Source: Aquipseudomonas alcaligenes MRY13-0052
GTDB lineage: Bacteria > Pseudomonadota > Gammaproteobacteria > Pseudomonadales > Pseudomonadaceae
Assembly: GCA_000474255.1 (NCBI GenBank)
Contig: BATO01000040.1
Span: 1 to 52,733 of the forward strand
DNA length: 52,733 bases
Direction of reading: 5' to 3'
Positions 15,321-29,340 of the stretch are shown here, in pieces (position 1 is the stretch's first letter; the number at the start of each line of letters is the position of its first letter). The translations under genes and the position numbers were made by a program. The notes beneath the pieces are model-generated. The model was given only the letters and a program-made list of their open reading frames with translations. It was not told the origin of the DNA and ran no database searches.

Positions 15321-16253
15321 TTACTTCTTAGGCGCGCCATCCGGCAGGTTGGCGTTGAGCAGCAGCGCCAGGCGGATGCCCGCTTCCTGCACGCGGCGCT
15401 CGGCCAGGGGCAGGAATTTCTTCAGGTAACGGCGATCCAGGGTGTCCTGGTTGCCCCCTGCCTCGCCCTCCTCGTCACCACCCTGGGTGCCACGACGGGC
15501 CCACTCCTCGCTTTTCGACTGCTTGAAGGCATCAGGCTTGAAGGCCTTCTTGCCGCCGGTCTTCGGGTACAGGTCGTCGTCACGGACGATGGCGCAGGAC
15601 TCCCCCGACCAACTCGCGGGAGTGCCCACCTCGGGTTTCGGCAGGTCCTCGGACAGCTTCGCCGTATAGGCCGCCTGGTCCAGGCGCCGGCTTGCCAACA
15701 GGTAACTGTCCCAGACGCTGTGCAGGTTGTAATCGCGGCCGCCGACCACCACCGGGAAGTCGTTGCCGCCCTTGTCCAGGCGATAGCTGTTATGCAGCGG
15801 CTGGTGGATATCACCCACGAAATGCACCACGAACATCAGCGCCATGACCTTCTGGTTGTCATTCGCCTTGGGGTCGGCCAGCAGCGCCGCGTTGCGCTCG
15901 ATGGCCGCCACCACGCACTGGCCGTCCGGGCAGTCACGCGGGGCCTGGTAGGTGCAGTCGTCGGTCTTGTAGTTGATGTAGTGCTGCGCGCGGGTCTGCT
16001 CCCAGAGCGCCTGGAAGTCCGGCATGTTGCGCAGGTTGTCCGCCCAGCTGGCGACAGCGGAAAGGTGCTGCTGCCGCACCAGCGCCAACAGGCGATCGGC
16101 CTCGGCCTTGGCCGCTGGCGTCAGTTGCGCCTCGGCGATATCCGCCACCACCGCGTGGCCCAGCTGGCCCCAGGCCCCTGCCTGCGCGCCCCAGAGCAGG
16201 CTGCCGATGAAGAGACCGGCGCCCAGCGCCCGACGAAATCCGTTGTGCTGCAT
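15321..16253 (-). CDS. S1/P1-family secreted zinc nuclease
   Basis: The 310-residue precursor has a Sec signal peptide cut before Trp28 (AGA|WGQLGH). The N-terminal Trp of the mature protein is itself a zinc ligand in this family. All ligand motifs are visible: W-G-x-x-G-H, WAD (residue ~72), HYIN, VHFVGDIHQPLH, and NLHSVWDSYLL. These trinuclear-zinc enzymes cleave single-stranded DNA and RNA and have 3'-nucleotidase activity, giving 5'-nucleotides. It is the last gene of the twelve-gene same-strand block, 80 bp after deoD, with AGGGGGAA before its ATG. A periplasmic or extracellular location is expected. Confidence 0.92.
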   Translation of the reverse strand: MQHNGFRRALGAGLFIGSLLWGAQAGAWGQLGHAVVADIAEAQLTPAAKAEADRLLALVRQQHLSAVASWADNLRNMPDFQALWEQTRAQHYINYKTDDCTYQAPRDCPDGQCVVAAIERNAALLADPKANDNQKVMALMFVVHFVGDIHQPLHNSYRLDKGGNDFPVVVGGRDYNLHSVWDSYLLASRRLDQAAYTAKLSEDLPKPEVGTPASWSGESCAIVRDDDLYPKTGGKKAFKPDAFKQSKSEEWARRGTQGGDEEGEAGGNQDTLDRRYLKKFLPLAERRVQEAGIRLALLLNANLPDGAPKK

Positions 16254-16333
16254 GTTTCCCCCTAATGGCTGTGCCCAGGCATGAAGCGCCCCCGGGCGCG
16301 CCTGGACGTCGCACCCACGCGCAAAGAAATGAC

Positions 16334-17047
16334 TCAGTGATCGAGGGTCATGGCGTCCAGTGTCAGCCGCACCATGTCGTGGAAGTCTTCCTGGCGCTGC
16401 TCGGCGGTCAGCTTCTCGCCGCTGATCAGGTGGTCGCTCACCGTCAGCACCGCCAGGGCCTGGCGCCCCAGCTCCGCCGCCACGCCATAGAGCCCGGCAG
16501 CCTCCATTTCCACCGCCAGTACGCCCATGCCCGTCATGCGCGCGGCCCAGGCCAGGTCCGGCTCGTAGAACAGGTCGGCGGAGAAGACGTTGCCCACGTG
16601 CACCGCCTGCCCCCTTTCGTCAGCACGGCGCACGGTGCGTTCCAGCAGCCGGTAGTCGGCCAGGGCGGCAAAGTCGAAACCGCCGAAACGCTTGCGGTTG
16701 ACCACCGAATCAGTTGACGCGCCCTGGGCGATCACCAAGTCGCCCACCTTCACGCCGTCCTGCAGCGAGCCGCAGCTGCCGACGCGGACGATACGCTGCA
16801 CGCCGTACTGGCTGAACAGCTCGTGGGCGTAGATCGACAACGAGGGGATGCCCATCCCCGAGCCCATCACCGAGATGCGCTGGCCCTGGTAGAAGCCGGT
16901 GAAGGCCAGCATGTTGCGCACCACATTCACCTGGCGGACGTCCGTCAGGTAGGTGTCGGCGATCATCTTCGCCCGCAGCGGGTCGCCCGGCATCAGCACG
17001 GTTTCGGCGAAGTCACCCGCAAGGGCGGTGATATGGGGAGTGGCCAT
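16334..17047 (-). CDS. deoD: Purine nucleoside phosphorylase, DeoD type
   Basis: The 237 residues match the hexameric bacterial DeoD family: MATPHI, LMPGDPLRAK (phosphate binding), GSGMGIPS, RVGSCGS, and VEMEAAGLYGVA (nucleoside binding), with a catalytic Asp near SDHL. It cleaves purine (deoxy)nucleosides with phosphate to base and (deoxy)ribose-1-phosphate. It starts directly at the deoB stop (no gap). The gene order deoC-deoA-deoB-deoD is the same as in the E. coli deo operon. Confidence 0.95.
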   Translation of the reverse strand: MATPHITALAGDFAETVLMPGDPLRAKMIADTYLTDVRQVNVVRNMLAFTGFYQGQRISVMGSGMGIPSLSIYAHELFSQYGVQRIVRVGSCGSLQDGVKVGDLVIAQGASTDSVVNRKRFGGFDFAALADYRLLERTVRRADERGQAVHVGNVFSADLFYEPDLAWAARMTGMGVLAVEMEAAGLYGVAAELGRQALAVLTVSDHLISGEKLTAEQRQEDFHDMVRLTLDAMTLDH

Positions 17048-18286
17048 CTACAGGTTTCCGGATTCAGGATGAATGAAGGATTCGCCGTGCTCGCAAGCCG
17101 GCAGGTCGAAGAAGGTGGCCAGGCTCTGGCCGATGTCGGCGAAGCTGCCGCGCTCGCCCAGGCTGCCGGGCGTGATGCCGGCACCGAAGGCCAGCACCGG
17201 GATGTGCTCGCGGGTGTGGTCGCTGCCTGGCCAGCTCGGGTCGCAACCGTGGTCGGCGGCCAGCATCAGCACATCGCCCTCCCCCATCACCGCCAGCAGC
17301 TCCGGCAGGCGACGGTCGAAAGCCTCCAACGCCAGCGCGTAACCGGCGATATCGCGGCGGTGGCCGAAGAGCATGTCGAAGTCGACGAAGTTGGCGAACA
17401 CCAGGGTGCGTTCCGGCGCTTCCGCCACGGCCTGCAAGGTCGCCTCGAACAGCGCCTCGTTGCCGTCGCCCTTGTACAGCCGGCTGATGCCCCGGTGGGC
17501 GAAGATGTCGCCGATCTTGCCCACCGCGAACACCTGGCCGCCGGCGTCCACCAGCCGGTCCAGCAGGGTCGGTGCGGGAGGCGGCACGGCGTAGTCGCGG
17601 CGGTTGCCGGTGCGGCGGAAATCGGCGGCGGAAGTGCCAACGAAAGGCCGTGCGATCACCCGGCCGATGTTCCAGTCATCGCACAGCTCACGGGCGATCT
17701 CGCACAGCTGATAGAGCCGCTCCAGGCCGAATGCCTCCTCGTGGGCGGCGATCTGGAACACGCTGTCCGCCGAGGTGTAGCAGATGGGCTTGCCGCTGCG
17801 CAGGTGCGCCTCGCCCAGTTCTTCGAGGATGGTGGTGCCCGAGGCGTGGCAGTTGCCGAGGATGCCCGGCAAGCCGGCGCGTTCGATCAGCGCATCCAGC
17901 AGCTCGGGCGGAAAGCTCTGCTGTTTCTCGGCGAAGTAGCCCCAGTCGAACAGCACCGGCACCCCGGCCATCTCCCAGTGGCCGGACGGCGTGTCCTTGC
18001 CGCTGGACAGCTCGCGGGCATGGCCATGGGCACCGATGACGGGCGCCTCAGGGTCGAAGCCCGGCGCATAGGCACCGGCACTGGCTGCCGCTGCATGGCC
18101 CAGCCCCAGGCGCTCCAGGTTGGGCAGATGCAACGGGCCGCTGCGCAGGGGGCCATCCGCTTCGCCACGGGCACAGGCTTCGGCGATGTGCAGCAGCGTG
18201 TTGGCACCCTGGTCGCCGAAGCGCGTGGCATCCGCCGTGGCACCGATACCGAAGGAGTCGAGGACCAGCAACAAGGCTCTGCCCAT
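17048..18286 (-). CDS. deoB: Phosphopentomutase
   Basis: The 412-residue alkaline-phosphatase-superfamily metalloenzyme interconverts (deoxy)ribose-1-phosphate and -5-phosphate. The N-terminal [11 protein letters not shown] metal motif, the [14 protein letters not shown] motif with the phosphoacceptor Thr, and the C-terminal [18 protein letters not shown] metal-binding motif are all present. AGGAGCGG precedes the ATG. It links the phosphorylases DeoA and DeoD to the aldolase DeoC. Confidence 0.95.
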
Positions 18287-18295
18287 GGTCCGCTC

Positions 18296-28370: not shown

Positions 28371-28562
28371 CACGGAGCGTGCCAGGAACTGACTTCACAA
28401 TCAGAATTGAAATAAGCGTTTGATTGGCGGGCCCCGCAGCAGAGCCACATACCCCTGAGCCGTGAATCCGCGCACATCGGCCAATGCCCCAATCTGGCGA
28501 CTTCGCCGAGCAGCCCGCACCAAGTTGTCTCAACAGACAGGATCAAGCGCTGATCGTCCGAC

Positions 28563-28596
28563 AATTTATCAACCTGTCATCTGCGTCAGGTTTCAT
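28563..28596 (+). promoter_or_regulatory. Candidate Pho box and promoter of aphA
   Basis: AATTTAT-CAAC-CTGTCAT (28563-28580) has one weak and one perfect Pho half-site, followed after 10 bases by TTTCAT (28591-28596), a 4/6 match to the -10 box. The aphA ATG is about 97 bp downstream. Weaker than the exbD-side site but with the same spacing, which makes chance less likely for the pair. Confidence 0.35.
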
Positions 28597-28692
28597 GGGG
28601 CAGCAGCCGCCTGTGCCGGACGCCCTTCCGGGCCCGTGGCGGCATGCCGGTTGCTAGCCAACCGACGAGCAAACCCATCGATGGAGTACGCA

Positions 28693-29340
28693 ATGCGCAA
28701 GACGATCCACGCCCTGGCCCTCGCTGTCGCGGCAGCCTTCCCCACCGCCTTGCTGGCGGAAGAGGTACTGCCTTCGGAGGTGCACTGGGTTTCGGTAGAG
28801 GAGATCGGCGGCAGCCTGTCGGGGCAGGCGCCCATCAGCGTCGGTTTCGATATCGACGACACGCTGCTGTTTTCCAGCCCCTGCTTCTATCACGGCAAGC
28901 AGAAGTACTCGCCAGGCAGCGACGCCTACCTGCACGACATGCGCTTCTGGCAGGAAACCAATGGTGGTTGCGACCGCTACTCGCTGCCCAAGGAGGTGGG
29001 GCGCAGGCTGATCGACCTGCACCAGGCCCGGGGCGACCGCATCTTCTTCATCACCGGCCGGCCGAGCACGCCCGGGGAGAAGCTCAGCGAGATACTCCAG
29101 CAGACCTTCGCCATCAAGGCGATGAACCCGGTGATCTTCTCGTCCGGCCCGGAAAAGGCCGCGTTCATCCGCCAGCAGGGCATCGCGCTCTACTACGGCG
29201 ATTCGGACAGCGACATCCGCTCGGCGCGGGACGCCGGCATCCGCGGCGTGCGGGTGATGCGCGCCGCCTCCTCGACCAACCAGCCGCTACCGGAGAACGG
29301 CGCGCTGGGCGAGGAGGTGATCATCGATTCGGATCACTGA
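28693..29340 (+). CDS. aphA: Class B acid phosphatase AphA (periplasmic, HAD superfamily)
   Basis: The 215-residue protein has a Sec signal peptide (LALAVAAAFPTALLAEE) and follows E. coli AphA along its length: HWVSVEEIGGSLSG, the catalytic GFDIDDTLLFSSP with nucleophile Asp and acid/base Asp, FFITGRP, NPVIFSSGPEKAAFI and YYGDSDSDI. AphA dephosphorylates 3'- and 5'-nucleotides and can transfer phosphate to nucleosides. The ATG at 28693 has GGAG at 6 bases. It is transcribed divergently from the twelve-gene block and overlaps the end of phuW tail to tail by seven bases. It extends the nucleotide-degrading theme. Confidence 0.93.
   Translation: MRKTIHALALAVAAAFPTALLAEEVLPSEVHWVSVEEIGGSLSGQAPISVGFDIDDTLLFSSPCFYHGKQKYSPGSDAYLHDMRFWQETNGGCDRYSLPKEVGRRLIDLHQARGDRIFFITGRPSTPGEKLSEILQQTFAIKAMNPVIFSSGPEKAAFIRQQGIALYYGDSDSDIRSARDAGIRGVRVMRAASSTNQPLPENGALGEEVIIDSDH

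Follow-up and report, generated by a model that had tools for sequence, protein, structure and literature searches.

A conserved Pseudomonadaceae locus joining a TonB module to nucleotide and nucleoside genes: a candidate operon for uptake and catabolism of nucleic-acid breakdown products

Gene content of the locus

The stretch analysed here (52,733 nt of the 237-contig draft genome of Aquipseudomonas alcaligenes MRY13-0052, G000; hereafter the window) contains at positions 15321-29340 a minus-strand run of twelve co-directional genes, read from 28249 to 15321, and a divergent aphA on the plus strand. The run opens with exbD, tonB, a TonB-dependent receptor and exbB (hereafter the quartet) and continues with a 5'-nucleotidase, six genes of nucleoside import and catabolism and an S1/P1 nuclease, a combination that we consider as a candidate system for TonB-driven uptake of nucleic-acid breakdown products. 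An earlier note made on this DNA had described twelve head-to-tail genes plus the divergent phosphatase, and all of them were recovered in that arrangement, with intergenic gaps of at most 80 bases and some genes abutting:

28687-29340, plus strand: aphA, acid phosphatase, divergent (TIGR01672, 262.5 bits against a cut-off of 195.8)
28250-28686, no strand: divergent promoter region (alignment of 11 upstream regions)
27842-28249, minus strand: exbD, first gene of the quartet (PF02472, 103.4 bits; ATGCG start kept in 11 aligned loci)
27073-27837, minus strand: tonB, energy transducer (PF03544, 25.4 bits against 24.6; TIGR01352, 28.5 against 27.1)
24675-27011, minus strand: TonB-dependent receptor of 778 aa, plug and barrel (PF00593, 151.9 bits; PF07715, 46.8 bits; GTG start after GAGGAG)
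23971-24609, minus strand: exbB, proton channel (PF01618, 97.1 bits)
22238-23950, minus strand: lipoprotein 5'-nucleotidase (PF02872, 115.9 bits; PF00149, 35.5 bits; lipobox-like motif)
21744-22157, minus strand: cdd, cytidine deaminase (PF00383 and PF08211 above cut-off)
20433-21695, minus strand: nupC, concentrative nucleoside transporter (PF07662, 270.4 bits; PF01773; PF07670)
19605-20381, minus strand: deoC, deoxyribose-phosphate aldolase (TIGR00126, 208.6 bits against 117.3)
18296-19618, start probably near 19597, minus strand: deoA, thymidine phosphorylase (TIGR02643, 632.2 bits against 570.7; match 18308-19597)
17048-18286, minus strand: deoB, phosphopentomutase (TIGR01696, 499.5 bits against 341.2)
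16334-17047, minus strand: deoD, purine-nucleoside phosphorylase (TIGR00107, 316.2 bits against 232.25)
15321-16253, minus strand: S1/P1 nuclease (PF02265, 188.4 bits against 29.5; signal-like N-terminus)

Curated cut-offs are exceeded by the S1/P1 nuclease, AphA, the NupC domains, ExbB, ExbD and both receptor domains, barely by TonB, and by the full nucleoside set nupC, cdd, deoC, deoA, deoB and deoD. From its spacing the twelve-gene run is likely to be a single transcript, and no minus-strand terminator-like site was found inside it by a scan that yields 10 sites overall against a shuffle mean of 7.6. The genome carries seven ExbD-family genes, so that the TonB system need not be private to the locus as the earlier note had it.

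Conservation of the core

Receptor searches, followed by the analysis of larger stretches, defined a set of thirteen loci (group A): the window, L060 from the same species (G008), L056 from the same genus, L057, L058, and L032-L039, of which L035 comes from P. kuykendallii NRRL B-59562 and L036 from P. japonica DSM 22348. The same core is present in the 12 loci other than the window, and 11 of these also contain deo genes; L058 (genome G100) has aphA, the quartet, the 5'-nucleotidase and S1/P1, but no deo gene. The 5'-nucleotidase directly follows exbB in all 13 loci and shows a lipobox-like motif in all 12 copies examined. Both deoA and S1/P1 are found in 12 of the 13 (S1/P1 being absent from L037), deoD in 8 of 13, and a divergent aphA in 10 of the 11 loci with enough stretch, L039 lacking it. 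Outside the genus of the window, gene order is kept at 44-84% protein identity per gene, with S1/P1 the lowest, and because the order recurs at such identities we regard the operon as more than a chance arrangement. In the same-species genome G008, deoA (L060, 4849-6167) matches in two separate pieces, indicating either a pseudogene or a sequencing error.

Among 298 Pseudomonadaceae genomes, the receptor passes 1e-100 in 28 and the S1/P1 nuclease occurs in seven, which are exactly the seven with a receptor at 67% identity or more; the nuclease gene always lies at the receptor locus, 2.6-8.5 kb from the receptor gene. The co-occurrence that the earlier note had suggested looking for is therefore found, for S1/P1 in these 7 of 298 genomes and for deo genes in 12 of the 13 group A loci, and the union of a TonB-ExbBD-receptor module with genes for nucleotide and nucleoside use is a real, conserved feature.

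The quartet and its enzyme neighbours in the wider family

The quartet occurs in 33 loci from Pseudomonadaceae, other Gammaproteobacteria and one alphaproteobacterium (Methylosinus), and in all 33 a predicted secreted nucleotidase or a phosphodiesterase resembling phospholipase D (PLD) family members PLD3/4 lies next to it or divergent from it. The quartet is complete in 31 of the 33; L033 is cut before exbD, and in Methylosinus the gene at the tonB position matches no Pfam family. In group B (15 non-redundant loci, ~50% receptor identity), a PLD-type gene comes after the quartet in 13 loci, and the other two have a divergent 5'-nucleotidase. Three more gammaproteobacterial loci, one of them on a Chimaeribacter plasmid, combine the quartet with a PLD gene, and L142, also from a gammaproteobacterium, holds quartet, 5'-nucleotidase and PLD all together. 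On the Methylosinus plasmid the order is exbD, the gene without a Pfam match, receptor, exbB and a 2',3'-cyclic-nucleotide phosphodiesterase/3'-nucleotidase. Taken together, these neighbourhoods suggest that the quartet is tied to phosphodiester and nucleotide breakdown, and not to deo genes as such.

The best match of the PLD-type enzyme is 7e0m (6.4e-172), the PLD of Serratia plymuthica, followed by entries deposited as the 5'-3' exonucleases PLD3 and PLD4, and both HKD motifs are intact in all 10 copies checked. Passages of the paper on the Serratia enzyme describe nuclease-like loops and leave nucleic-acid cleavage open (PMC8004604). The PLD of the sister loci L041, L042, L045, L050 and L059 may be a secreted nuclease labelled as a phospholipase.

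Receptor relatives outside the quartet were found at 20 loci, of FecR type (3), GMC type (7), from sphingomonads with an APH-type kinase (4), from Acetobacteraceae (2) and others (4). None of the 20 has a reference enzyme beside it by tblastn with the reference proteins, a search that other enzyme families would escape and that sees little flank in some loci (1.5 kb in L026 and L027, ~1 kb downstream in L132). Two of these neighbourhoods deserve mention in their own right. At L051-L055, a receptor (~36% identity) is followed in five of five loci by genes for a GMC oxidoreductase and an aldehyde dehydrogenase, an uncharacterised receptor-catabolism pair. Among sphingomonads, receptors at 29-31% identity (L127-L129) are lined up with genes for an APH-type kinase and PnuC, a possible TonB route for nicotinamide riboside; PnuC is seen in three of the four APH-kinase loci, the fourth being cut short.

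A class-wide search, scoring at most two candidates per genome, gave 1 of 369. Profile searching across the phylum gave 9 of 398 and brought up quartets in other families, which extends the receptor family beyond Pseudomonadaceae. No relative was found on viral contigs.

The receptor

Both the plug (PF07715) and the barrel (PF00593) of the receptor lie above cut-off, which identifies it as a TonB-dependent transporter, and tonB, exbB and exbD adjoin it in the window as well as in 30 other complete quartets; it would accordingly be expected to work through TonB-ExbBD. It exceeds no NCBIfam family cut-off, is only distantly similar by sequence to the solved receptors CntO and FoxA in the PDB, and gave a mean predicted local distance difference test score (pLDDT) of 30 with AlphaFold on 9 sequences. 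Between the window and its congener L056 (G017), DNA identity per 300-base step is 61-88% in the receptor and 85-98% in the rest of the operon, and on the tree the L056 receptor clusters with that of Pseudomonas sp. GV071 and not with that of the window. This pattern fits recombination or allele exchange at a surface receptor.

Receptor-free deo clusters and the history of the site

Thymidine phosphorylase (TIGR02643) is encoded in 24 of the 298 genomes, seven with and 17 without a group A receptor. We took as stretches 12 deo clusters lying apart from the receptor, from 11 genomes without a group A receptor plus G100. Next to the operon of the window stands a cyclic-nucleotide-binding gene; 10 of these 12 clusters (all except L177 and L178) adjoin a homologue of it (50-87%), and L176 shares with the window the chaN and haem genes on the opposite flank. 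The complete series cdd-nupC-deoC-deoA-deoB-deoD is present in four clusters (G158, G036, G020, G185), the other eight being shorter.

All 12 receptor-free clusters contain a gene for the outer-membrane protein Tsx (tblastn), which is above the Pfam cut-off in the seven tested. Strong Tsx matches (>120 bits) always lie within 3.5 kb of deoA and occur in 14 of the 17 receptor-free deoA genomes and in G100, but in none of the six merged genomes (Fisher 6e-4 against the 14 of 17, to be taken as a guide only as the genomes are related). None of the 13 receptor loci of group A was found to have a strong cluster-type Tsx. Low-scoring paralogues of the Tsx family (30-75 bits) are widespread; because G008, from the same species, has two such hits (49.5 bits) and the genome of the window is a draft, we dropped the absence of Tsx from the window genome as an argument standing alone.

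In the genus of the window, 14 of 15 receptor-free genomes have nothing at the site, the cyclic-nucleotide gene and chaN being direct neighbours (G004 has deoC and deoD there), and deoA is absent from all 15. These empty sites had suggested one 14-kb island inserted whole. The single origin implied by the earlier note is not borne out, for deo clusters with Tsx and without the TonB module occupy the same site elsewhere, and in G100 the module stands apart. The simplest order of events would have a TonB-phosphoesterase module added to both ends of an existing deo cluster, with loss of Tsx; the deo part is, on this comparison, the older at this site.

The upstream region

Two elements were noted in the divergent promoter region:

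28369-28384, minus strand: sigma54-like site TGGCAC-N6-TGCT, exact match, candidate only
28389-28404, minus strand: imperfect inverted repeat with the frame CTG-N10-CAG, present in 11 of 11 aligned upstream regions

The first matches what we take to be the sigma54 consensus. Its GG-N10-GC is found in six of the ten other aligned upstream regions and missing from four, and with up to one mismatch the pattern occurs five times in the window against 6.26 expected from shuffles. The repeat, just upstream of it, is a possible operator of some regulator. Outside the genus, eight of nine aligned upstream regions share the element AATCAAA(A/C/T)TG(T/A)AAC.

A putative operon for uptake and catabolism of nucleic-acid breakdown products

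Gene content, order, conservation, the absence of cluster-type Tsx and the intact nuclease motifs of the window copy are read directly from the sequence. On these grounds we consider it probable, with some reserve, that the locus is an operon for TonB-driven uptake and catabolism of nucleic-acid breakdown products, merged with an older deo cluster whose Tsx the receptor replaced. The receptor would bind nucleotides or short oligonucleotides outside the cell, and TonB, ExbB and ExbD would drive them across the outer membrane. Once in the periplasm, oligonucleotides would be cut to 5'-mononucleotides by the S1/P1 nuclease, and the lipoprotein 5'-nucleotidase and AphA would strip the phosphate from these. 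NupC would then carry nucleosides inward, where Cdd, DeoA, DeoD, DeoB and DeoC would degrade them to bases and central metabolites. When the TonB-phosphoesterase module joined the deo cluster, the receptor would have taken Tsx's place.

We infer the transported substrate, the enzyme locations, the history and the expression as one unit. That the substrate is phosphorylated is argued from the phosphatases, which stay with the receptor where deo genes are missing (L058), and from the deo clusters elsewhere, which have Tsx and no receptor. The TonB-powered route for nucleotides or oligonucleotides put forward in the earlier note is thus the best explanation by conservation and enzyme neighbours, with a substrate deduced from them.

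Several observations weigh against this interpretation, and the first concerns the nuclease, aligned here for 11 group A loci with L060 left out. In the window copy, Trp28 corresponds in the alignment to residue 1 of the solved S1/P1 nucleases, the signal-like N-terminus ends before this Trp, and the active-site motifs are intact (HFVGDIHQPLH and NLHSVWD, for the patterns HxxGDxHQPxH and NLHxxWD), as they are in L056 and L058. The zinc ligands, whose positions we presume to be those of P1, are lost in eight of the 11 aligned homologues (L057, L032-L036, L038, L039): the N-terminal Trp is kept, while His6 is changed to Thr, Asp45 to Gly, and three ligand histidines to Arg, Asn and Arg. The S1 nuclease mutant D65N is described in the consulted passages as retaining 0.16-0.19% activity (PMC5201275), and Asp65 of S1 is taken to be the same aspartate as Asp45. 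The earlier note's pathway covering every step therefore keeps its nuclease in the window, but not as a general feature.

The degenerate copies are also of interest in themselves. Five pairs of them show ratios of nonsynonymous to synonymous substitution (dN/dS) of 0.12-0.25, which indicates that the protein is kept under selection, so that these homologues, with five zinc ligands gone in 8 of the 11 loci, look like a maintained pseudo-nuclease that may bind nucleic acid without cutting it. A more specific version of our proposal would see a proteobacterial TonB-dependent oligonucleotide importer, with a nuclease kept periplasmic so that nothing is shared with neighbours, and in some relatives a dead nucleic-acid binder handing fragments on; this we hold only tentatively, as appreciably less probable than the proposal itself.

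The remaining contrary points concern the receptor kin, the Tsx distribution and the need for active import. Receptors at 57-60% identity have FecR adjoining in three of three loci and no reference-set enzyme near, and the tree places them together with L037 within group A. Certain close relatives have thus parted from the enzyme genes, or their partner lies elsewhere; three genomes (G219, G261, G265) carry both receptor kinds. Receptors at ~36% identity (seven loci) adjoin GMC oxidoreductase and aldehyde dehydrogenase genes and no reference enzymes. The enzyme classes counted in the 33 of 33 quartets were, moreover, picked after the loci had been seen. Three of the 17 receptor-free deoA genomes (G038, G079, G086) lack a strong Tsx, four (G072, G107, G119, G125) retain Tsx although a group B quartet is present elsewhere in the genome, and G100 carries its TonB module away from a deo cluster that includes Tsx. 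Outside the genus of the window, no group A locus stands at this chromosomal site within the stretches seen. Finally, porins may let mononucleotides and nucleosides through, so that active import would matter only for scarce or large substrates.

A first alternative is that the TonB module imports organic phosphorus generally (phosphodiesters or phosphomonoesters, those of lipid head groups included), chiefly as a phosphate supply, and that the deo genes only consume the leftover nucleoside when the source happens to be nucleotides. The sister loci couple the quartet with PLD-type enzymes, a divergent PhoD is present in five of the eight group B loci having long flanks (L041, L042, L045, L050, L059), and G100 holds its module without deo genes at that locus; phosphate-regulated PusCD loci with phosphodiesterases are, according to the passages covered, known from Flavobacterium (PMC8115612). 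A consensus scan found a Pho-box-like CTGTCATCAAAGCGTTAC upstream of exbD, which does not amount to an established Pho box: scored with a matrix built on 11 pstS promoters, the site in the window reaches p=0.037 relative to all windows and p=0.11 relative to AT-rich windows. Most other loci do no better; L058 (p=0.007) and L045 (p=0.003), both relative to all windows, score higher. S1/P1, 5'-nucleotidase, Cdd and NupC all indicate nucleic acid, and the PLD-type enzyme is itself close to the PLD3/PLD4 exonucleases. We judge general phosphorus import to be unlikely, though the strongest competitor.

Still less probable in our view is a receptor that takes scarce nucleosides themselves, doing Tsx's work with energy coupling. 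Cluster-type Tsx is indeed missing where the receptor merged with the deo cluster, and distant receptor relatives (29-31%) adjoin the nicotinamide riboside transporter PnuC in three plasmid loci. Yet such a receptor would need neither phosphatases nor nuclease, and the operon keeps both here; G100, moreover, retains Tsx besides its TonB module, which argues against a receptor acting simply as a nucleoside channel.

A third alternative, import of a metal complex (iron or zinc) for itself or as phosphoesterase cofactor, with the nucleotide genes as passengers, could draw on CntO and FoxA being the nearest solved structures, on the haem uptake cluster bordering the window locus, on FecR beside close receptors, on the iron ABC transporter and second TonB receptor 4-7 kb from the quartet's receptor in Methylosinus, and on a Novosphingobium capsulatum locus that continues with a sigma factor, FecR and another receptor. 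The haem cluster is, however, an old flank of the site, with homologues of chaN, hmuV and hmuU in none of the 10 group A loci outside the genus. A PLD type directly follows exbB in 16 loci, the HKD pair is intact in all 10 copies checked, nine of them among these 16, and the PLD/HKD mechanism is metal-free; the receptor is still present in the eight loci where S1/P1 has lost its zinc ligands. Neighbouring iron genes are thus not kept across relatives, the distant Methylosinus quartet having its iron transporter nearby, and we consider metal import very improbable. The case that the earlier note had named against itself, receptor homologues beside unrelated genes, is met with in part (57-60% receptors with FecR, ~36% receptors with GMC oxidoreductase).

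Comparison with known systems

Nucleic acid represents a major reservoir of carbon, nitrogen and phosphorus, and to our knowledge the passage across the outer membrane of pieces larger than a nucleoside is poorly known in Gram-negative bacteria. The carbohydrate loci of the CUT and Sus types share the plan proposed here, with receptor, periplasmic depolymerase, inner-membrane carrier and catabolism, but they handle sugar polymers and not nucleic acid, and are usually without their own tonB-exbBD. A search of all thirteen genes gave no match to SusD (Pfam on 10, NCBIfam on the other three), and hence no SusCD pair as in the phosphate utilisation systems of Flavobacterium.

The nucleoside part has close counterparts in the deo-nupC-cdd clusters with Tsx of G158, G036, G020 and G185, which contain the same six genes in the same order and, in the first three, adjoin the same cyclic-nucleotide-binding gene as the window operon. 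Unlike the window, they have Tsx, and the TonB module, S1/P1 and the 5'-nucleotidase were not found in them by tblastn with the window proteins. E. coli Tsx (PF03502) resembles the receptor in being an outer-membrane entry tied to nucleoside use, but is a passive channel and not TonB-coupled.

Among the literature matches listed (titles, abstract openings and some passages), there was no recognisable description of a TonB locus for nucleic acid in Proteobacteria. In the parts covered of a 2024 review of TonB-dependent uptake, mentions of nucleosides concern Tsx and 'nucleic acid' gives no hit (PMC11658791), and the covered text of a paper on the phosphate exoproteomes of three Pseudomonas strains gives none for 'tonb' (PMC5082522). 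Within this literature, the nearest published idea is that of the PUS loci of Flavobacterium johnsoniae (PMC8115612). As here, a TonB-dependent transporter stands beside phosphoesterases, and uptake of organic phosphorus has been proposed, with nucleic acids among the likely sources; in contrast, those loci are of SusC/SusD type, belong to Bacteroidetes and are induced by phosphate depletion, and the passages covered mention neither tonB-exbB-exbD of their own nor deo genes or nupC.

If our interpretation is correct, it would add a new substrate class for TonB-dependent transporters, give a testable role to a receptor family so far carrying general or siderophore-type labels, and bear on whether the Serratia PLD, as discussed in the passages covered, cuts nucleic acid (PMC8004604). 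The locus would then take its place beside the known systems as a TonB-dependent nutrient locus whose substrate class, as deduced from its genes, is new to these transporters.

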